Shown: positions 55,788 through 64,000 of the stretch, piece after piece
Position numbering within the stretch: position 1 is the stretch's first letter
Layout: every line of letters begins with the position of its first letter
Assembly: GCF_022662175.1 (NCBI RefSeq)
Contig: NZ_JAKMCR010000007.1
Span: 32,208-96,207 of the forward strand
Direction of reading: 5' to 3'
Source of the DNA: Aestuariivivens marinum
GTDB taxonomy: Bacteria > Bacteroidota > Bacteroidia > Flavobacteriales > Flavobacteriaceae
Length of the DNA stretch: 64,000 nt
Notes under the pieces: model-generated
The model's database searches: none
What the model was told of the DNA's origin: nothing
The model's input: the letters and a program-made list of their open reading frames with translations, nothing else
Made by a program: the position numbers and the translations under genes

Positions 55788-56918
55788 ATGAAATTTAAAC
55801 AACATATTACTTTAAAGCATCTTTTAGTTGATAATACAAAGTGTATAGGCTTACAGTTTTATGCTAATAATGCTTTAAACATTCTGGTAAAGGAACTTGA
55901 TAATGTTCTTTGGAGCGATGAATTTAACATGTATTATTTACCGAACAGTAAACATAATTTAGACAGTATTTATAATTTATTCAGAGGAGTAGCATGGATA
56001 GACTCTCAATACTTCTTCCAATACACCAGATCTAAACAACTGTCAGAAACCTTTGATGTGTCATGGTTTCGCAAAAGAAAACGAAATTCTAACTTCAGGT
56101 TTTGTCCTGAAAGTTATCTTCAAAAATTAGAACTAAAAAAGTATTCTAACAATACGGTTAAATCTTACGTAAAATGTTTTGAAGACTTCATTAATCATTA
56201 CCATGATAAAACCATTGATAATCTAAACGAAAAAGATATAAGGGCATATCTTCAGTTTTTAATTCAAACTAACCGCTCAAAATCTTATATAAATCAATCT
56301 ATTAATAGTATAAAGTTTTACTACGAAATTGTGCTTGGAATGCCCAATAGGTTTTACAATATTGAGCGACCAAGAAAAGATAAAAAGCTTCCGTTTGTAT
56401 TAGCTAAGGACGAGGTTATTCAGCTTATTGAAAACACTAATAATCTCAAACATCGTTGCATTGTTAGTTTATTATACTCAGCTGGCTTAAGAAGAAGTGA
56501 ACTACTAAACCTTAAGATATCAGATATTGACAGTTCTAGAATGCTAATTAGAGTACAAGAAGCCAAAGGGAATAAAGATCGTTACTCACTCCTGTCAAAT
56601 ACAGCATTAAAGGACTTACGAGCTTATTATAAAAAATGGAAACCTAAAGTTTATCTATTTGAAAGTCCAAACGGTGGAAAATACAGCCCAAATAGTGTTG
56701 CAAAAATAGTTTCCAATACGGCAGCAAAAGTTGGGATTAACAAACCTGTTACGCCTCACACTCTAAGGCATAGTTTTGCTACGCATCTGCTTGAAAACGG
56801 CACAGATTTAAGGTACATTCAACTTCTTTTAGGACATAGTTCTACTAAAACAACAGAGATATACACCCATGTTGCAAAGAGTAGTTTTAATTCTATTAAA
56901 AATCCTTTAGATTTGTAA
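55788..56918 (+). CDS. Tyrosine recombinase at the head of the cassette array
   Basis: A 376-residue site-specific recombinase. The catalytic set is complete: Arg235 (GLRRSELL), Lys260 (QEAKGNKDR), His324 and Arg327 (PHTLRHSFATHLL), His350 (LLGHSS) and Tyr359 (EIYTHV). A core-binding domain spans about residues 108-190, and an extra N-terminal domain (1-100) begins with IGLQFYANNALNILVKEL. It ends in NPLDL like many Bacteroidota enzymes. From Lys to His it has 64 residues, close to E. coli XerD (72) and far from IntI1 (106), so the IntI-specific insertion is missing. It lies directly upstream of the cassette array in the same direction. It is probably the cassette integrase. Confidence 0.9.
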   Translation: MKFKQHITLKHLLVDNTKCIGLQFYANNALNILVKELDNVLWSDEFNMYYLPNSKHNLDSIYNLFRGVAWIDSQYFFQYTRSKQLSETFDVSWFRKRKRNSNFRFCPESYLQKLELKKYSNNTVKSYVKCFEDFINHYHDKTIDNLNEKDIRAYLQFLIQTNRSKSYINQSINSIKFYYEIVLGMPNRFYNIERPRKDKKLPFVLAKDEVIQLIENTNNLKHRCIVSLLYSAGLRRSELLNLKISDIDSSRMLIRVQEAKGNKDRYSLLSNTALKDLRAYYKKWKPKVYLFESPNGGKYSPNSVAKIVSNTAAKVGINKPVTPHTLRHSFATHLLENGTDLRYIQLLLGHSSTKTTEIYTHVAKSSFNSIKNPLDL

Positions 56919-56927
56919 GTATTTATG

Positions 56928-56935
56928 TATATTTG
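56928..56935 (+). promoter_or_regulatory. Candidate cassette promoter (-7 box)
   Basis: TATATTTG, a perfect match to TAnnTTTG, stands 10 bp behind the recombinase stop and 46 bp before the first cassette edge, directed into the array. The -33 element is imperfect (TTTA at 18 bp). Position and direction are those of the Pc promoter of integrons. Confidence 0.5.
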
Positions 56936-56947
56936 AGTATATATATA

Positions 56948-56991
56948 GTAGGCATATATACACCAGTAAACATATTCCTACGTTGTGGGTA
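56948..56991 (+). other. attI-like insertion site
   Basis: The junction reads CCTACGTTGTGGGTA. GTAGG (56948-56952) and CCTAC (56977-56981) form a short inverted repeat, and upstream GTATATATA and CATATATAC are another. Left of GTT there is no long palindrome like those between cassettes, as expected for attI compared with attC. The crossover lies at G56982/T56983 if it follows the cassette rule. Confidence 0.55.
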
Positions 56992-57007
56992 ATTTGAGAA
57001 AACCGAA

Positions 57008-57388
57008 ATGAACGAATCAAAAAGACTGAATTTCTTAAAATCTTATCTCAAACTATACGGAGTTGAGAAAATTGAATTGATAAACGAAACGGCTGACTCA
57101 ATAAGCGGAATTGCAATCTATGATGAAAATGACCCAGAAGAAAAGCAGGAATTTATTTGGCATAAATCAGAAATGGAAATTCCTTCACCTGAATTAAACA
57201 TTCTGATTGAAAAAATTGTGGTGGAAAAATGGCATAACGGAGACAAAATTTCTGAACATATTGAGGAATTGGAATTTGAGGAATTTGACAACTCGATTAA
57301 AGAAAAAATCTTGACCGAATTGTTTGACGTCCGAATTAGAATGGTTGATGATGGAGAGGAAACGGACTCATATTGGGTGCATTACTAA
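57008..57388 (+). CDS. Cassette 1 protein, unknown
   Basis: A 126-residue acidic soluble protein (MNESKRLNFLKSYLKLYGVE start; FDVRIRMVDDGEETDSYWVH end). No family is known to me. It starts 26 bp behind the first cassette edge and ends 31 bp before the first attC-like site, so the cassette carries little but this gene. As it is first behind the candidate promoter, it should be the best expressed. Confidence 0.65.
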   Translation: MNESKRLNFLKSYLKLYGVEKIELINETADSISGIAIYDENDPEEKQEFIWHKSEMEIPSPELNILIEKIVVEKWHNGDKISEHIEELEFEEFDNSIKEKILTELFDVRIRMVDDGEETDSYWVHY

Positions 57389-57418
57389 TTGAAAAGCTGA
57401 ATATGAAAAATAAAAAAC

Positions 57419-57548
57419 TACCCACAACACCGTATATAATTTATTGCTAGTTCTAGCCTACTTACGAAAATCCTCGCGGATTTTCTATTCGGTTTTTATT
57501 TGCTAAATTACGTGCCAAACCACGCAACAAACCATATACAAACACGTT
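57419..57548 (+). repeat. attC-like site 1
   Basis: Left arm TACCCACAAC is the exact complement of the cassette 1 start GTTGTGGGTA at 56982; spacer ACC; GTATATAATTTATTGC pairs with the right arm GCAACAAACCATATAC with three G.T pairs on the bottom strand; between them GAAAATCC/GGATTTTC forms a terminal hairpin. Right spacer AAACAC, then GTT of the next cassette. 130 bp. Confidence 0.85.
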
Positions 57549-57574
57549 GTACCACATTACAGAATCGAAAATTA

Positions 57575-58591
57575 ATGGGAATATTTAACAGGAAAAAGAA
57601 ATGGGGAAATTTTAGTGGAAACATAAATATTCATTCTGACCTCAAAAAATCTGATATCCCGAAAATCATAGCGGAAAAGAATATTCACTCATTACAACTA
57701 TTCCAATTTCCAAATCCGAAAAGGCAAACGTGGGAAACCCTTAATGAATTCTTCAGTAAGTATCCAGATATTGGATTAAGAGTTCTTTGGTATGAATGCC
57801 AAGATTTATCCTTTTATAAACTCATTCCGAATATTAGAAAATTTACAATAGCCACTTACAATATAAAAGACTATTCCATACTAAAAACGAATACAAAACT
57901 TAAACACTTTGGAATTGAGGAAACTAAATCCAAAGCTGTTGATATATCATTCATAAAAGAGTTTACGGAATTAGAATCATTATATGTTGACGGAATGAAA
58001 AAAGGATTAGAGAACGTTAAACATTTATCGAATCTAGAAATTTTGACGTTTCGTGGTGTGAAATTGGATAACCTCGACTTTTTGAACGAATTGACCCAAC
58101 TTCAAGAATTAAACTTACTTTATGGCAGTTATAAAGACCTAAATGCAGTTTCAATACTAAATGGCTTAAAAGAATTAGAATTAAGCCGAGTAAGACAAAT
58201 ACCTGACTACCATTTTTTGAGAAACCTTGTGAATCTTGAGAAACTTTGCTTTGAGGGTATGTCCGAAATGTCAATTTTACCAGATTTAAGTGGACTAAAA
58301 TCATTAAAAAGAATCCAAGTTGATAACAACAGTAGACTTAACGATATTTCTTCAATATCGCAAATTCCCAATCTTGAAGAATTTTTATTGTTTTTCCCCG
58401 AAAATTTTAAAGCTTCAGTAAGAAAAAAATTAACTGAACAAGCATATCAAATTGTAATGGAATCCAAAACGATTAAGTCAACAAGTATATGGCTTCGAGT
58501 TAATAACGAGCAGAGAGAAAATTTAAGAAAAAAAGGTGTCGAATTTTGGAATTATAGCAAAGAAGCTGAAGATTTAGTATCAAAAAAATAA
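57575..58591 (+). CDS. Cassette 2: leucine-rich-repeat-like protein
   Basis: A 338-residue protein beginning MGIFNRKKKWGNFSGN. The middle (about residues 90-280) has repeated units of 20-24 residues with Leu at fixed positions (HLSNLEILTFRGVKLDNLDF, ELTQLQELNLLYGSYKDLNA, GLKELELSRVRQIPDYHFLR), the pattern of bacterial leucine-rich repeats. ATG 57575 is used as the frame upstream runs into the preceding site. It has no signal peptide, so it is cytoplasmic. Partner unknown. Confidence 0.78.
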   Translation: MGIFNRKKKWGNFSGNINIHSDLKKSDIPKIIAEKNIHSLQLFQFPNPKRQTWETLNEFFSKYPDIGLRVLWYECQDLSFYKLIPNIRKFTIATYNIKDYSILKTNTKLKHFGIEETKSKAVDISFIKEFTELESLYVDGMKKGLENVKHLSNLEILTFRGVKLDNLDFLNELTQLQELNLLYGSYKDLNAVSILNGLKELELSRVRQIPDYHFLRNLVNLEKLCFEGMSEMSILPDLSGLKSLKRIQVDNNSRLNDISSISQIPNLEEFLLFFPENFKASVRKKLTEQAYQIVMESKTIKSTSIWLRVNNEQRENLRKKGVEFWNYSKEAEDLVSKK

Positions 58592-58592
58592 C

Positions 58593-58722
58593 GTGGTACA
58601 ACACCGTGTATAATTAATGGCTAGTCCTTGCCTACTTACGAAAATCCTCGCGGATTTTCTATTTGGTATGTATTTGCTAAATTAGTTGCTTAAACACGCC
58701 ACTAATCATACACAAACACGTT
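58593..58722 (+). repeat. attC-like site 2
   Basis: Left arm GTGGTACAAC equals the reverse complement of the cassette 2 start at 57546 over 10 bases. Stem GTGTATAATTAATGGC with GCCACTAATCATACAC (two G.T on the bottom strand); inner hairpin GAAAATCC/GGATTTTC as in site 1. It begins only 1 bp behind the stop of the LRR gene. 130 bp. Confidence 0.85.
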
Positions 58723-58738
58723 AGGGGTAATTAGATAA

Positions 58739-60172
58739 ATGAAAATACTAAAACTACTTTTAAAAATTGTATTCGCTCTAATCGGAGCGCTTATCCTAAT
58801 TGTAGTCATTGCCCTTTGGGTTGATTCGGCACGATCTAACTATTTGAATATTGATAAGAGCGAAACGACATCAGTGAATTCATACATAATTTCTAATGTC
58901 AATGTCATCCCAATGAATATAGACACTGTTTTAATGAATAAGATGGTCTATATAAAGGAGGGAAGAATTGAAAAAATAGCAGACTTAATTGAGGTAAGTG
59001 AAATTCAAATTTTTGACGGAGAGAACAAATATCTAACACCAGGTCTTATAGACATGCATGTTCATGTTTGGGATAGATATGAATTAGGTCTTTATCTATC
59101 AAATGGTGTTACGGCAGTTCGAAACCTTTGGGGCATACCTATGCATTTGAGAATTAAAGAAGACATAGTTGAAGACAATATTTTTTCACCAACGTTTTTT
59201 ACATCAGGACCAAAACTTACTGGTCGAGAATTCATAGGCGATGATAATTTGAACCTTACAAATCCTAGTGAGGCTAAAGAAAAGGTGATTTCATATAAAG
59301 CGAGAGGCTACGACTTTATTAAAACCTACTATGGAATAGATAAAGACATTTTCGATGCCGTAATTGAACAATCTCAAAGATCTGAAATTGATATCGTTGC
59401 TCACCCTTCTCAAAAGGTATCGTTTTCATATCATTTGAAACCACAAATCAAATCTATTGAACATGCCGAAGAAATTGTACAGCAGGCCTTAAAATACGAT
59501 ATAGACTCCATCAAACTTCAACCTATTATTGAGTCTATTTCAAAGTCTGAACACACAAGTTATTGCCCAACAATTACTGGATTTAACAATATCTATCAAA
59601 TGATGATTAATGACTCTATTTTAAGCTCCGAGTCAATAAATTATATGAATCCCCTTATCAGAAAAGTAGATAGTAAAAATCAATTTAAACGTTGGTCCAA
59701 CGCTATAAAAAATGATTCATCTGAAGTCAGTAGAATAAAAAATCAGCATGATTTCCATATCATGATCGTACAAAAACTTTATGAGGCGGGTGTCAATATT
59801 ATTTGTGGCACTGATGCAGGCATAGGTGTTACCCTTCCAGGTTTTTCAATTCATAAGGAACTGGCCTTTTATAAAAAGGCTGGCCTTTCGAATTATGAAG
59901 TTTTGAAAACTGCTACCGTAAATGCTTCTCAAACGCATTCTATTATGAACCAACTTGGAACTATTGAAGAAGGCAAAATTGCTAACTTATTATTAGTGGA
60001 TGAGAACCCACTTATTAAGCTGTCATCACTAGAGAATCCGACTTGTGTTTTTATACAGGGGCGAAAATTGAACAGGGAGACTCTGGATTCTTATAATGAA
60101 AGGGCAAAGAACCGTAAGAATCTAATGGCTTCTGCTATTAGTTATTTAGAAAACTTAATAATTGAAAAATAA
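58739..60172 (+). CDS. Cassette 3: amidohydrolase family protein
   Basis: A 477-residue protein. A hydrophobic N-terminus (LLKIVFALIGALILIVVIAL) anchors it in the membrane; the rest is an amidohydrolase TIM barrel with LTPGLIDMHVHVWD (metal-binding HxH, about residue 105), a metal His in IVAHPSQK (about 222), EHAEEI, and CGTDAGIGVTLPG (catalytic Asp about 357). It resembles imidazolonepropionase- and prolidase-like amidohydrolases. Starts 19 bp behind the cassette edge; stops 2 bp before the next site. The substrate is unknown. Confidence 0.85.
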   Translation: MKILKLLLKIVFALIGALILIVVIALWVDSARSNYLNIDKSETTSVNSYIISNVNVIPMNIDTVLMNKMVYIKEGRIEKIADLIEVSEIQIFDGENKYLTPGLIDMHVHVWDRYELGLYLSNGVTAVRNLWGIPMHLRIKEDIVEDNIFSPTFFTSGPKLTGREFIGDDNLNLTNPSEAKEKVISYKARGYDFIKTYYGIDKDIFDAVIEQSQRSEIDIVAHPSQKVSFSYHLKPQIKSIEHAEEIVQQALKYDIDSIKLQPIIESISKSEHTSYCPTITGFNNIYQMMINDSILSSESINYMNPLIRKVDSKNQFKRWSNAIKNDSSEVSRIKNQHDFHIMIVQKLYEAGVNIICGTDAGIGVTLPGFSIHKELAFYKKAGLSNYEVLKTATVNASQTHSIMNQLGTIEEGKIANLLLVDENPLIKLSSLENPTCVFIQGRKLNRETLDSYNERAKNRKNLMASAISYLENLIIEK

Positions 60173-60174
60173 AC

Positions 60175-60241
60175 TACCCCTAACAATGTATATAAAATCA
60201 TAGCTTCCATTCGGTCGCTACGCTTCATATACCCAACCGTT
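60175..60241 (+). repeat. attC-like site 3 (short form)
   Basis: Left arm TACCCCTAAC complements the cassette 3 start GTTAGGGGTA over 10 bases. Spacer AAT, then GTATATAAAATCATAGC pairs with GCTACGCTTCATATAC with three G.T on the bottom strand and one bulged base, around a 12-base loop. At 67 bp it lacks the outer hairpin region found in the other sites. Confidence 0.8.
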
Positions 60242-60258
60242 GTGCACAAGCTGAAAAA

Positions 60259-60663
60259 ATGAGCGAAGTTAAAATTGAAGTTTATTACAAAAAAGAGAAA
60301 GTAACAACTACTCTTTATGTTGAGCAATTATCGGAAAACAAATTTCGGATGACTGACAATGACTTCTGCAATCCTAAACTGACATTGGGAACGGAATTTG
60401 AGACGAAAATTAATGACCAGAATAAACACGAAATAACTAAAATCACAAAAGAGTCGGAATACATTACTCGCAGATTCGGATTGACACCAAATCATAAAGA
60501 ATCTGACTATAGAATGTTGGGAGATGAATTAACAAAAAGAGGTGGATTTTGGCAAGTTGACCTTGGTAGTATTGCAACCATTAACATTCCAAAAGATTTT
60601 GAATTTGATGTTGACCAAGTTATTAAAGAATTGGATTTAAAATTGGTGGAAATAACAGAATAA
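60259..60663 (+). CDS. Cassette 4, first gene: hypothetical protein
   Basis: A 134-residue beta-rich soluble protein (MSEVKIEVYYKKEKVTTTLY start, VDQVIKELDLKLVEITE end). It resembles small proteins with DUF4265-like features but I cannot name the family with confidence. It is followed after 1 bp by a CDI immunity-like gene, so both share one cassette and probably one function. Confidence 0.6.
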   Translation: MSEVKIEVYYKKEKVTTTLYVEQLSENKFRMTDNDFCNPKLTLGTEFETKINDQNKHEITKITKESEYITRRFGLTPNHKESDYRMLGDELTKRGGFWQVDLGSIATINIPKDFEFDVDQVIKELDLKLVEITE

Positions 60664-60664
60664 A

Positions 60665-61126
60665 ATGCTATCAAAATCTATTGAGCAACTTGAAAACGAT
60701 TATTGGAAAGACGACATTGAGTTTCCATCAAATCTTGTGGTTAATTGCCATAAATACAGAAAAATTCCAATTAAGGACTTAACAATTGAGCAATTAAGAG
60801 TTTTGATTTCACAAAAAATCGGAATTGAATATCTGGCTGAACTTGCAATCAAAAAGCTTGAATTAAATATTTTGGCGGAAGGCGACCTTTATGAGGGCGA
60901 TTTGTTACAGGCAGTGTTGAGCTTACCGACTGAATTTTGGAATGAAAAGCAAACTGAATTTCTGACTTTACAAAACTTGGTGGAACAGAATTCTGAACTG
61001 ATAAAAACTGAACTCGGAGAAAAGAAATTTGACCGAATAAATGAAAAAATAAAAGCCAGTGCACAACAATGTATAACCGCAATTACGGTGGATTCGACTA
61101 CGTCCGAATCCACTCGGAATTGCTAA
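60665..61126 (+). CDS. Cassette 4, second gene: CDI immunity-like protein
   Basis: A 153-residue protein that begins MLSKSIEQLENDYWKDDIEF and contains KIPIKDLTIEQLRVLISQKI, GIEYLAELAIKKLELNILAE and GDLYEGDLLQAVLSLP: the pattern known from contact-dependent growth inhibition immunity proteins (CdiI-type, PF18593 as I recall). No CDI toxin is in view, so it may be an orphan shield. The last 22 codons (from SAQQCITAI) lie in the attC-like site and the stop is inside it. Confidence 0.72.
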   Translation: MLSKSIEQLENDYWKDDIEFPSNLVVNCHKYRKIPIKDLTIEQLRVLISQKIGIEYLAELAIKKLELNILAEGDLYEGDLLQAVLSLPTEFWNEKQTEFLTLQNLVEQNSELIKTELGEKKFDRINEKIKASAQQCITAITVDSTTSESTRNC

Positions 61127-61189
61127 CGTTAGTGCTTAACCGAAAAACATTAACTTTAAAACCGTAACTGACGGTTATACGAGACCGTT
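61059..61189 (+). repeat. attC-like site 4
   Basis: Left arm GTGCACAAC is complementary to the cassette 4 start GTTGTGCAC (60239) over 9 bases. Stem GTATAACCGCAATTACGG with CCGTAACTGACGGTTATAC: one G.T on the bottom strand and one extra base. The inner hairpin is GGATTCG/CGAATCC. Close to site 7 in sequence. 131 bp; overlaps the end of the CDI immunity-like gene. Confidence 0.85.
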
Positions 61190-61210
61190 ACCCATAAGCT
61201 AAACTGACCA

Positions 61211-62005
61211 TTGAGAATACTGCTTCACATCATAATCATCGTTCTTTTAACAGTTGTTACCCAAATCGGTGGAATTATTTATTTAATTGCTGTTTTATTA
61301 ATAAAACGGACAGCAACAAAAAGACATCTGAAACGAATTGGGATTTTTGCAGGACTCTATTTATTCACTACTTTTTTGATTATCCCAAACATTGCACCAA
61401 TTTTCGGACGTGAAAAAATTAAAGAAACTGAATTTTTAAAAGCACATTCTGTCTTTTACAAACTTGCAAATCGAAATTATGTCCGACCAGAATTAAACAA
61501 ATCTCTAACTCAAATCGCATCCGAATTTGAGAATCGGAATAGCGGAATAAAAATGATCCATCTCGATGCGAACTTTCCATTCATAAACGGATTTCCTCTT
61601 CTGCCCCATTTAAGCCACAACGACGGAAAAAAAGTTGACGTTTCCCTAATTTACCAAGAGCCAAACGGACAACTGACCAATAAAAAACCATCAATAAGCG
61701 GATATGGAGTTTACGAAAAACCAACCGCAAACGAATATGACCAAAATGCAGATTGTAAACAACGTGGGAATTGGCAATATGATTTCCCGAAGTATTTGAC
61801 TTTAGGGACTATCAATAAAGAAATTGACTTTTCCGAAAAGGGAACTCGTGAATTAGCGAATTTGATTTTACGTCAAAACAGCATCGGAAAATTATTTATT
61901 GAACCACATTTAAAAAAACGACTGAATTTAACAAACGGAAAAGTAAGGTTTCACGGTTGTCAAGCTGTTCGACACGATGACCATATTCATTTCCAATTAA
62001 AATAA
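61211..62005 (+). CDS. Cassette 5: LAS-type zinc metallopeptidase, membrane-bound
   Basis: A 264-residue protein. Two N-terminal helices (LLHIIIIVLLTVVTQIGGII and IGIFAGLYLFTTFLIIPNIA) precede a periplasmic domain with PLLPHLSHNDGKKVDVSLIY, the HxxxxxxD zinc motif of the LAS family, and the final HxH in VRHDDHIHFQLK. LAS enzymes (M15/M74) cut peptidoglycan cross-links or D-Ala-D-Ala. The start is TTG at 61211, 24 bp behind the edge. The target could be cell wall; the exact bond is not known. Confidence 0.75.
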   Translation: MRILLHIIIIVLLTVVTQIGGIIYLIAVLLIKRTATKRHLKRIGIFAGLYLFTTFLIIPNIAPIFGREKIKETEFLKAHSVFYKLANRNYVRPELNKSLTQIASEFENRNSGIKMIHLDANFPFINGFPLLPHLSHNDGKKVDVSLIYQEPNGQLTNKKPSISGYGVYEKPTANEYDQNADCKQRGNWQYDFPKYLTLGTINKEIDFSEKGTRELANLILRQNSIGKLFIEPHLKKRLNLTNGKVRFHGCQAVRHDDHIHFQLK

Positions 62006-62011
62006 AAAGCC

Positions 62012-62142
62012 TATGGGTAACAACGGCTATAGTTCATTGCTTCTGACTTTCCTCTCGGAAAGTCCTCGCAAATTTGCTATCTTCGGTTTACGGCGGAAAA
62101 TCCTCGCGGATTTTCACGCAACGAAACCATAGCCAAACCGTT
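62012..62142 (+). repeat. attC-like site 5
   Basis: Left arm TATGGGTAAC complements the cassette 5 start GTTACCCATA over 10 bases. Stem GGCTATAGTTCATTGC with GCAACGAAACCATAGCC: two G.T on the bottom strand, one extra base. The top has two hairpins: GACTTTCC/GGAAAGTC and GGAAAATCC/GGATTTTC. 131 bp. Confidence 0.85.
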
Positions 62143-62151
62143 ACCACACAT

Positions 62152-63039
62152 TTGAGAAAAACATTGAGAACGACAATAATATTACTTCTGATTTTAGTTT
62201 CGAGCCTTTCATTTGGACAAGGAAATGGACTATATAAATTCCAATCCGAAAATGGCAAATACGGATTTATGGACAAAAACGGAAAAATTAAAGTAAAAGC
62301 GGAATATCTTAATGTTGGAGATTTCAGCGAAGGGCTTTGCTACGTTTCCAAAGAAGTTATAAAAAAAGGTTACAAATGGATTTTTATCGACACTTTAGGA
62401 AATAAAGTTTTCGACATTAAAGATAATTTTCCAGAAACAGAATTTAGCGAAGGATTTGCTCGAATTTCAAGCTTTGAAGAACAATGGTTTGTTAATAGAA
62501 AGGGATTAAATGTATTTGAAAAAACTTGGAAAGATGGACACGGAGAATTTCAAAACGGAATTGCATATGTAAGTGACAAAGAATTCTCTGATTTTTATCC
62601 AATAAATACAAAAGGAGAAAGAATCGGAACAAAAACTTTTTCAAGAGTAGAGATTTACAACTCAAGAAAAAAAGACAGAATGGGAACACAAGATAAACCA
62701 GAATATAAATCTGATAGTTATGTTCCATTTCAAGAAAATGAATTTTGGGGTTTCAAAGACAGGTTAGGCAATGTCGTAATTAAGCCAAAGTTTTATAAAG
62801 TAGATAAATTTAAAAATGGAGTTTGTGGTGTTAGAGTAAATAAGCGTGATTTTGAAATTGCAAATGACTATTTTCTTGATGCTATCATAAATGAGAGTGG
62901 AGTAATTCTCAATGAAATAGAAATGCATTGCTATTTGGGATTTCAAGGAGAGTTAATTGAGTTTTATGGAGCACCTCATTTCGGTGGTGGAGTTCACTAT
63001 CTGAATAAAAAAGGAGAAAAAATAAAACCAACCGAATAA
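62152..63039 (+). CDS. Cassette 6: secreted WG-repeat protein
   Basis: A 295-residue exported protein: signal peptide LRTTIILLLILVSSLSFGQG, then WG (tryptophan-glycine type) repeats of about 30 residues such as YKFQSENGKYGFMDKNGKIK and FQENEFWGFKDRLGNVVIKP. WG repeats are beta-hairpin units of unclear ligand, common in Bacteroidota secreted proteins. The start must be inside the cassette; TTG 62152 or TTG 62164 both fit, and the longer frame from 62074 runs through the preceding site. Confidence 0.78.
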   Translation: MRKTLRTTIILLLILVSSLSFGQGNGLYKFQSENGKYGFMDKNGKIKVKAEYLNVGDFSEGLCYVSKEVIKKGYKWIFIDTLGNKVFDIKDNFPETEFSEGFARISSFEEQWFVNRKGLNVFEKTWKDGHGEFQNGIAYVSDKEFSDFYPINTKGERIGTKTFSRVEIYNSRKKDRMGTQDKPEYKSDSYVPFQENEFWGFKDRLGNVVIKPKFYKVDKFKNGVCGVRVNKRDFEIANDYFLDAIINESGVILNEIEMHCYLGFQGELIEFYGAPHFGGGVHYLNKKGEKIKPTE

Positions 63040-63046
63040 AAAAAAC

Positions 63047-63174
63047 GTGTGGTAACAACGTGTATAGCCCATTGCGGCTGAATTCCTAATCGGAATTCAT
63101 TGCAATTTGCTATCTTTCGGTTACGGCGGAAAATCATAGCTGATTTTCCGCAACGAGCCATACACAAACACGTT
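63047..63174 (+). repeat. attC-like site 6
   Basis: Left arm GTGTGGTAAC complements the cassette 6 start GTTACCACAC (62140) over 10 bases. Stem GTGTATAGCCCATTGCGG with CCGCAACGAGCCATACAC: three G.T pairs on the bottom strand. Inner hairpins GAATTCC/GGAATTC and GGAAAATCA/TGATTTTCC. 128 bp. Confidence 0.85.
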
Positions 63175-63183
63175 GCCAACAAT

Positions 63184-63459
63184 ATGAAAAAAGTTCTCGA
63201 TAGCCGAAAATACAACCTAATCGGAATTTTAGTAGGAACAATAATTGCGTGGATTATTGCAATGCGGACTGACTTGCCAGCGAGTTCAAATCACGGCGGA
63301 TTTATTCCCTTAATTTATCCACCTTTCATCGGAATTTTGACTGTTATCGTCTATTTGATCAGCAGATTGATAACGAAAAAATATAATTGGATAATAAGCA
63401 TAATCGGAATAGTTTACATTCTACATTTCGCAATTGATTTTAATTTAAGTTATGCTTAA
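63184..63459 (+). CDS. Cassette 7, first gene: three-helix membrane protein
   Basis: A 91-residue membrane protein from ATG 63184 (MKKVLDSRKYNLIGILVGT). Helices at about residues 11-27, 43-61 and 69-85. The upstream frame to 63100 is ignored since it lies in site 6. It ends 8 bp inside the next gene, so translation is coupled. No known family. Confidence 0.65.
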   Translation: MKKVLDSRKYNLIGILVGTIIAWIIAMRTDLPASSNHGGFIPLIYPPFIGILTVIVYLISRLITKKYNWIISIIGIVYILHFAIDFNLSYA

Positions 63460-63727
63460 AAAAATAACCAAATGGACTTTTCTAAAAGGCTATTTATTAG
63501 TCTATCTGACTTGTTGTTTGATTTTTACAATCATCAAATGGAAAACACTCTCATACGAAGAAAGTTGGGGAGTTGTTTATATGGTTGGACTAATCGGACT
63601 TGGACTTTTTGGATTGGTAATTGACTTTATTTTGACTTTAATAATCAAGAATAAAAAAATACTCAACGGAATTGGAATTTTAATAGCAATCGGATTTTCA
63701 ATAATGTTGATAATGGAATTTAAATAA
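63452..63727 (+). CDS. Cassette 7, second gene: three-helix membrane protein
   Basis: A 91-residue membrane protein (MLKKITKWTFLKGYLLVYLT start), helices at about 11-28, 40-63 and 70-89. It overlaps the first gene by 8 bp. Size and layout equal those of its neighbour, so the two may form a small complex. Both are unnamed. The stop is 21 bp before site 7. Confidence 0.65.
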   Translation: MLKKITKWTFLKGYLLVYLTCCLIFTIIKWKTLSYEESWGVVYMVGLIGLGLFGLVIDFILTLIIKNKKILNGIGILIAIGFSIMLIMEFK

Positions 63728-63748
63728 TGACTGAATTAATAAAAATAC

Positions 63749-63880
63749 TGTTGGCAACAATGTATAACCGCAATTACGGCGGATTCGACTACGTCCGAAT
63801 CCACTCGGAATTGCTAACGTCAGTTCTTAACCGAAAAATAGTAACTTTAATCCCGTAACTGACGGTTATACGAGACCGTT
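63749..63880 (+). repeat. attC-like site 7
   Basis: Left arm TGTTGGCAAC complements the cassette 7 start GTTGCCAACA (63172) over 10 bases. Stem GTATAACCGCAATTACGG with the same partner and G.T pattern as site 4; inner hairpin GGATTCG/CGAATCC. 132 bp, nearly identical to site 4 in the middle but with different end arms. Confidence 0.85.
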
Positions 63881-63910
63881 AGCGGTTATTAAAAGAACAC
63901 CAATTAGAGA

Positions 63911-64000
63911 ATGAGTTTAAAAGGTCAAACAGTGCGCATTATAGTTAGTGAGCCTTGGGATTGGGAAGAAAATCTATTTGGAACAATTCTATCCGACCGT
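63911..64000 (+). CDS. Cassette 8 gene, cut by window edge
   Basis: ATG 63911, 33 bp behind the cassette edge at 63878, opens a frame of 30 codons (MSLKGQTVRIIVSEPWDWEE) to the end of the window. No family can be told. It shows that the array continues. Confidence 0.55.
   Translation, partial: MSLKGQTVRIIVSEPWDWEENLFGTILSDR

Follow-up and report, generated by a model that had tools for sequence, protein, structure and literature searches.

Sequence evidence for a probable integron-like gene-capture system with a Xer-like, non-IntI recombinase in Bacteroidota

Integrons and superintegrons carry gene cassettes in tandem and in one direction, with an entry site, attI, beside the recombinase gene. 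In the parts of the literature available to us, the insert of the integron integrase IntI is treated as needed for integron recombination (PMC9668308, PMC8138268) and the IntI-specific domain as defining (PMC9668308). The insert is reported to be incompletely conserved in an integron-like subgroup (PMC8138268, from the portion accessible to us), and insert-free relatives are therefore already known as proteins. Bacteroidota appear among the phyla listed as having integrons (PMC9668308, PMC8618304, same limitation), and for Bacteroidetes an earlier study had In0 elements only, while for Bacteroidetes proper one complete integron, that of Salinibacter ruber, is reported (PMC9024848, in the sections we had). 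Here we describe a stretch of 64,000 nucleotides from Aestuariivivens marinum (contig C11, positions 32208-96207; hereafter the window, the end of which is also the end of the contig), in which the gene of a tyrosine recombinase lacking the IntI insert stands at the head of a row of cassettes with end sites of predicted hairpin fold. Although PMC9024848 concerns the same phylum, the sections of it available to us do not mention such arrays, and literature searches that covered no preprints and few subscription journals found no description of them.

We put the probability that the locus belongs to an integron-like gene-capture system driven by a Xer-like, non-IntI recombinase at about 0.83, judging from sequence comparisons. 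A sequence-only reading of the window had inferred a functionally parallel gene-capture system in Bacteroidota, and the sequence evidence presented below supports that inference.

The recombinase and its cassette row

The features of the window are as follows (ORF, open reading frame; LRR, leucine-rich repeat).

55788-56918, + strand: tyrosine recombinase, 376 amino acids (aa), with an N-terminal extension of ~105 aa, a SAM-like domain and a catalytic domain, without the IntI insert
56928-56935, + strand: TATATTTG, promoter-like TAnnTTTG box reading into the array (motif match)
56948-56991, + strand: attI-like junction, crossover GTT at 56982 (layout and first-cassette link)
56982-57545, + strand: cassette 1, ORF 57008-57388, without known function
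57416-57555, + strand: site S1, attC-like hairpin (own-edge complementarity, folding, 58-site alignment)
57546-58719, + strand: cassette 2, ORF 57575-58591, LRR protein
58590-58729, + strand: site S2 (own-edge complementarity, 58-site alignment)
58720-60238, + strand: cassette 3, ORF 58739-60172, amidohydrolase
60172-60248, + strand: site S3, short class (55 nt from AAC to GTT), outside the 58-site alignment
60239-61186, + strand: cassette 4, ORFs 60259-60663 and 60665-61126, the latter a CdiI_3 immunity protein
61055-61196, + strand: site S4 (own-edge complementarity, 58-site alignment)
61187-62139, + strand: cassette 5, ORF 61211-62005, no family match
62009-62149, + strand: site S5 (own-edge complementarity, 58-site alignment)
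62140-63171, + strand: cassette 6, ORF 62152-63039, WG-repeat protein
63044-63181, + strand: site S6 (own-edge complementarity, 58-site alignment)
63172-63877, + strand: cassette 7, ORFs 63184-63459 and 63452-63727, both without a family match
63746-63887, + strand: site S7 (own-edge complementarity, 58-site alignment)
63878-64000, + strand: cassette 8, incomplete, ended by the contig end

The recombinase, the attI-like junction and the head-to-tail, one-direction cassettes that had been read from the sequence are all present on the + strand. A stretch of 63 nt separates the end of the recombinase gene (56918) from the first crossover GTT at 56982, and further crossovers follow at 57546, 58720, 60239, 61187, 62140, 63172 and 63878. 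Start codons lie 12-33 nt inside the left cassette edges, the same range as had been given. The eight cassettes of that reading come to seven complete ones and an eighth (63878-64000) that is incomplete at the contig end, and its figure of ~130 bp for the sites does not extend to the site ending at 60239, which is far shorter; from AAC to GTT the window sites span 55-120 nt.

That the recombinase is not an IntI, also part of the sequence-only reading, is borne out by the missing insert, by the score against the IntI model and by the position in the tree. In the alignment, the insert region from the K-box to HxLRH is 58 residues long in the window protein compared with 100 in 13 of 13 IntI proteins, and 62-66 in 13 Xer rows. 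We use array-type as a label for recombinases found by similarity, adjacency to an array having been checked for a subset only; among 43 such rows, the region measures 58-59 residues in 39, 53 in one and 62 in three near-identical copies from genome G253. The catalytic R, K, H, R, H and Y are intact in the window protein and are retained in 69-70 of the 70 aligned recombinases. Its score of 209.5 bits against the IntI model TIGR02249 is below the cut-off of 265, and it is likewise below the cut-offs for XerC (TIGR02224, 202 bits, cut-off 335.15) and XerD (TIGR02225, 209.9 bits, cut-off 329.6), whereas the XerA-type model NF040815 is matched at 242.6 bits, above its cut-off of 220. The NCBI family name of the protein is "tyrosine recombinase/integron integrase".

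In our tree, IntI forms one clade (support 100/99), and 40 of the 43 array-type rows, together with one long-branched row, form a separate clade (97/95). The three G253 copies, of 298 aa, fall outside the array-type clade, on the IntI side (92/80). Tyrosine recombinases of 298-305 aa, some of them inside array regions, were noted in G253 (contig C1, at 1241725, 2683880, 2688108 and 2933389) and in G160. A wider, quick tree of 50 rows groups IntI with insert-free proteins of Firmicutes and Spirochaetes (Shimodaira-Hasegawa-like approximate likelihood ratio test, SH-aLRT, 83) and the array-type proteins with other insert-free proteins (SH-aLRT 90). From these sequences, independent recruitment of the array-type recombinase is likely but not settled, because the insert-free outsiders adjoin each clade at only these values and the deep branches are moderately supported. 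The N-terminal ~105 residues gave no convincing Pfam match. An AlphaFold model of the recombinase (mean predicted local distance difference test score 81.7, predicted template modeling score 0.51) has IntI4 (2A3V, the best match) and XerA as its nearest solved folds, and the closest solved relatives of the protein include XerA and XerD. Among 80 loci returned from viral contigs, the best relative is 49% identical over ~260 residues, with higher identities only in short pieces.

A genome scan with the recombinase gave at least 591 stretches, of which the best 80 were kept as loci. Sites are present in 12 of these 80, and among the 12 are Winogradskyella, Seonamhaeicola, Aequorivita, Algibacter, Mesonia, Flavobacterium, Arundinibacter and Aquiflexum; every site (47/47) lies downstream of the recombinase and is co-oriented with it. 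The other 68 loci include many distant relatives that do not belong to Bacteroidota, and many contigs stop shortly behind the recombinase. Short recombinases (frames of 282-319 aa, no extension) that are divergent from arrays occur in three genomes (G004, G104 and G096) and on two flavobacterial plasmids. The three genomic proteins fall inside the array-type clade; the plasmid proteins score 232 bits with the window protein versus 117 with IntI1. The window had originally been contrasted with a typically divergent IntI, a contrast that holds for the window and for the 47 sites, but the five divergent short recombinases were unforeseen.

Cassette edges, hairpin sites and the first junction

All seven complete cassettes of the window start with GTTR and a tag that is the reverse complement of the left edge of their own end site, with 9-10 contiguous complementary nt and a total of 12-13 among 14. 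An excised circle would require such complementarity to rebuild the full hairpin. A loose-rule chain finder was rejected because it produced long chance chains, and a strict finder demanding at least 9 of 10 tag matches was used instead on 373,769 bases, the window included. It returned 91 cassettes in chains at 13 loci; as controls, ten 3-mer shuffles read on the + strand only gave 10 between them, and the reversed sequence read on both strands gave 12. Since the finder demands nine of ten matches, the match rates at positions 1-10 of this set come partly from selection; at the unselected positions 12-14, 80-97% match the edge of the own site, and at position 11 the figure is 0%. A second set of 240 cassettes, in chains of three or more, was picked by tag positions 1-7 alone. 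Here, the positions not used for picking match the own site in 98% (position 8), 97% (9), 77% (10), 0% (11) and 85-97% (12-14) of cases. In a separate comparison of 75 cases, the match with the start of the next cassette is 60% at position 4 and 23-51% at positions 5-9. Across 270 cassettes from 21 genomes, position 11 is an A in 269, and in 242 of the 270 this A faces a C, which makes an A.C mismatch on the top strand and a T.G wobble on the bottom strand.

The hairpin-forming sites proposed at the right edges of the cassettes take the form of a covarying hairpin with a predicted bottom-strand fold. An alignment was made of 58 sites, out of 79 in the main length class, with S3 left out. A 4-pair R stem and a 16-pair L stem have 93.8% of their cells paired versus 73.9% in shuffled alignments, both-side changes are seen in 203 cells versus 63.8, and the covariation score is 0.492 versus 0.146; slid versions of the alignment are paired in at most 48.3% of cells. 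On the bottom strand, one pair of the L stem is G.T in 57 of the 58 sites and another in 46. Predicted folding favors the bottom strand in 88 of 91 circle-form sites and in 90 of 91 arm models, compared with 101 of 200 random stretches. The choice of strand seems to be written in the wobbles, and we infer that this is the strand used in recombination. Site lengths among the 270 cassettes fall into classes ~64 nt apart, with 227 at 114-124 nt and 31 at 174-190 nt; the remaining 12 are 100 nt or shorter, four of them 51-56 nt. Rfam gave no match at an E value of 1.

The attI-like junction stands by its layout and by its link to the first cassette. Of 32 loci, 19 have a first cassette start behind the recombinase that is linked to its own site at 10 of 10 nt, compared with 4 of 500 controls, and nine more are linked at 9 of 10, which 64 of 500 controls also reach, so that the first figure is informative and the second is not. 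Some of the resulting 28 linked loci, for example L133 (where the start lies 3 nt beyond the match end) and L140, were probably picked by chance. In 11 of the 28, the crossover is preceded by a near-perfect 24-nt palindrome (10-12 of 12 matches, against a control 95th percentile of 9) with its center 16-19 nt to the 5' side. In the window, an imperfect inverted repeat, GTAGG..CCTAC, was seen by eye directly 5' of the crossover GTT at 56982; the best palindrome score, 9, falls elsewhere in the stretch and is no better than the control 95th percentile (9). In 13 of 24 loci (the 32 junction loci with 8 left out), TAnnTTTG, which we take to be the Bacteroidetes -7 promoter box, lies no more than 110 nt upstream of the first crossover; the frequency in 1200 random stretches is 5.7%. 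Five of these loci have it only inside the end of the recombinase gene, which leaves 8 of 24. The promoter-like box of the window is thus present as a motif, at 56928-56935 and in these relatives, and its identity as a -7 element is our assumption.

Distribution, cargo and movement of cassettes

A covariance model of the site was built on the bottom strand and used in a survey of 395 genomes of the phylum, in which at most eight candidates were scored per genome under stricter filters. The search of related genomes that had been suggested as a check revealed that the sites are widespread, with matches in 172 of the 395 sampled genomes and 99 of 171 genera. Within the window's family, the survey listing shows matches in 33 of 41 genomes, a count that includes the genome of the window itself. 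Six one-contig genomes that were searched closely have 106, 22, 38, 136, 34 and 20 matches. Among the matches listed for G017 are two one-strand clusters of ~46 and ~63 kb, the second of which ends beside a recombinase. Of the same 395 genomes, 105 have a canonical IntI above its cut-off. Genomes listed with any IntI match number 107, of which none belongs to the window's family or order and one (G095) belongs to its class. When the site model was run on 21 IntI regions at an E value of 0.1, two had sites, L368 strongly and L361 weakly.

Sharing of cassettes across genera is weak (2 pairs above 75% identity among the 270 cassettes from 21 genomes), and the case for mobility therefore rests on copies within genomes and on turnover between congeners. 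Within genomes, 107 same-register cassette pairs exceed 80% identity, 101 of them non-adjacent, and in G017 one pair of 975-bp cassettes is 100% identical in two clusters ~500 kb apart. Non-adjacent copies of whole cassettes at 95% identity or more make up 73 pairs (61 in G017 and 12 in G281, with 12 cassette tags). In 72 of these pairs, the copied stretch stops no more than 29 nt from the right cassette edge, and in 60 it begins no more than 30 nt from the left edge. Within the genome that contains the window, contigs C11 and C3 finish in an identical 127 nt that starts 4 nt before GTT and follows different sites in the two contigs, and C3 and C9 share their first 127 nt as far as GTT and diverge beyond this predicted crossover. 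One and the same cassette edge is thus found in two contexts, the outcome expected of a duplicated block or of an excised circle. Six congeners, G017 included, have 102, 28, 44, 72, 18 and 7 sites at an E value of 1e-6. The sequence-only reading had named conserved genes in conserved order as evidence that would speak against it; instead, the 149 cassettes in the congener stretches examined (91 in G017, 42 in G452 and 16 in the other four) contain only three shared families, and neighbors differ in 8 of 8 comparisons.

The stretches examined of the window's genome contain 27 strict cassettes: 7 on C11 (the window), 7 on C2, 5 on C3 and 8 on C9. When 27 ORFs of these cassettes were searched against Pfam, each family found matched one member only, and the families include two immunity-type proteins, hydrolases, tetratricopeptide repeats, LRR, WG repeats and an EcoRV-like endonuclease. 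The immunity-type cargo consists of the CdiI_3 protein of the window (60665-61126) and a type VI secretion system Tdi1-type protein in another cassette of the genome. PADLOC returned no defense-system match among the ORFs of the genome's cassettes. Varied cargo, mostly of unknown function, is usual in integrons.

Arrays or their parts were also seen on plasmids. A Chryseobacterium plasmid (L066, NZ_CP041688) has a recombinase and four downstream sites, and a Flagellimonas plasmid (L065, NZ_CP092416) has a cassette of the dihydrofolate-reductase family (tag link 9/10) beside a divergent short recombinase, near ermF. In two further plasmid records (L063, FJ012881, 5052-7180, and L062), tet(X3) is immediately preceded by TnpF, the C-terminal piece of a recombinase, with 53.6% identity over residues 143-376. 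A palindrome and a GTTR start resembling attI are found between this piece and tet(X3), and the gene is followed by a cut-off half-site of the G055 type with an alignment score of 56, where 200 shuffles reach at most 32 and 1517 tiles of five loci at most 29. There is no intact cassette in the tet(X3) record. It may be that tet(X3) was once a cassette of the new system.

Alternative explanations and relation to known systems

In the mechanism that we propose, the recombinase would cut and join cassettes at G/TT. The bottom strand of a cassette would fold in single-stranded DNA, and the recombinase would read the hairpin rather than the sequence. A circle would then be excised, or joined at attI beside the recombinase gene, where the TAnnTTTG box would express the newest genes; the N-terminal extension might, more speculatively, bind the attI region. 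Several observations weigh against such a system. No recombination event, circle or strain pair was seen among genomes that represent one per species. The 73 copy pairs come from two genomes and 12 tags only, 13 of them run more than 30 nt past the left edge, and similar sites could give rise to duplicate cassettes by homologous recombination as well. The folding energies are predictions, and the 9/10 links at the first junction are hardly above chance, given that 68 of 500 controls reach 9 or 10. Repeats spread evenly over genomes with no recombinase nearby had been named at the outset as a point against gene capture. Although all 47 sites at the 12 of 80 loci lie beside a recombinase, G017 and G281 hold further clusters with no recombinase match nearby, and G324 (L165) has sites and no recombinase match in the genome at an E value of 1e-30, resembling a cluster of attC sites lacking integron-integrases (CALIN). 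At L368 (G064), array-type sites lie ~4 kb from a canonical IntI, and no array-type recombinase was found in the stretches examined.

The strongest competing explanation, though an unlikely one, is that of an ordinary integron, the enzyme being a derived IntI that has lost its insert. Canonical IntI arrays share the own-edge complementarity of 9-10 nt, IntI4 (2A3V) is the best solved fold match, and the NCBI family name fits. Against it stand two separate clades (IntI 100/99; array-type 97/95, 40 of 43 rows), the 58-59 residues in 39 of 43 array-type rows compared with 100 in 13 of 13 IntI, and a wider tree that pairs each clade with different insert-free proteins (83 and 90). A little less probable still is that the recombinase uses double-stranded sites, as Xer does on dif, and that the hairpin is a by-product of inverted core sites. 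The 16-pair L stem, kept by compensatory changes and carrying wobbles on one strand, and the preference for the bottom strand in 88 of 91 sites argue against this, even though XerA and XerD are among the closest solved relatives and some members of the clade have a palindromic attI stretch.

We consider it very unlikely that the cassettes are moved in trans by a canonical IntI elsewhere, as for CALIN, with the neighboring recombinase a bystander. An IntI above cut-off is present in 105 of the 395 sampled genomes, and G064 has this site type near an IntI, but the window's family and order are absent from the 107 genomes with a listed IntI match, the site model finds sites in 2 of 21 IntI regions and strongly only in L368, and the sites are linked by position to the array-type recombinase. 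Finally, that these are static repeats, regulatory or repetitive extragenic palindromic-like hairpins lying immobile between genes, is barely credible in view of the complementarity of edge and own site, the cassette-length copies and the turnover, although hairpins in general could stop transcription.

We therefore favor an integron-like gene-capture system, and its resemblance to integrons and superintegrons is extensive. Both have tandem cassettes in one direction, an attI-like entry beside the recombinase, and hairpin sites with an R and an L stem; own-edge complementarity and a predicted bottom-strand preference are shared too, as are clusters of tens of sites, with more than 100 in some genomes. 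The short-form recombinases are divergent from the array, like IntI. In contrast, the long-form recombinases carry an extension at the N-terminus and point in the same direction as the array, the new recombinase lacks the IntI insert, belongs to another clade and is below the IntI model cut-off, and a palindrome precedes the junction in part of the new clade. The 10-nt tag was rejected as a difference from canonical attC because cassettes of IntI regions carry a tag of 9-10 nt too. The only site difference kept is therefore the fixed, mismatched A at position 11, with 0% match in the set of 240 versus 67% in 33 IntI-region cassettes, which come from five regions and of which three, in L368, are probably of the new type. 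With XerA and XerCD, the enzyme shares core-binding and catalytic domains, the lack of the IntI insert and a score over the NF040815 cut-off, but it is below the XerC and XerD cut-offs and stands beside cassette arrays rather than a lone dif site. Some genomes have clusters far from a recombinase, as in CALIN, whereas the window and many checked loci have one at the head of the array. As far as sequence can tell, the system likely works like an integron while falling outside a definition based on IntI. We regard as evenly balanced the broader proposition that it is a second, independently recruited integron across Bacteroidota, with a XerA-like insert-free enzyme, arrays of superintegron size, strand choice by G.T wobbles and a past as carrier of genes, tet(X3) included, that have since spread to other phyla.

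If the system works, it would offer a mechanism for the "XerD" found beside tet(X) genes, the role of which is left open in the part of PMC7473080 available to us. The IntI insert would then be dispensable for recombination of folded sites, and the origin of integrons from Xer-like enzymes would become testable with a natural insert-free relative. Many Bacteroidota would also hold a pool of cassettes that surveys keyed to IntI would pass over.

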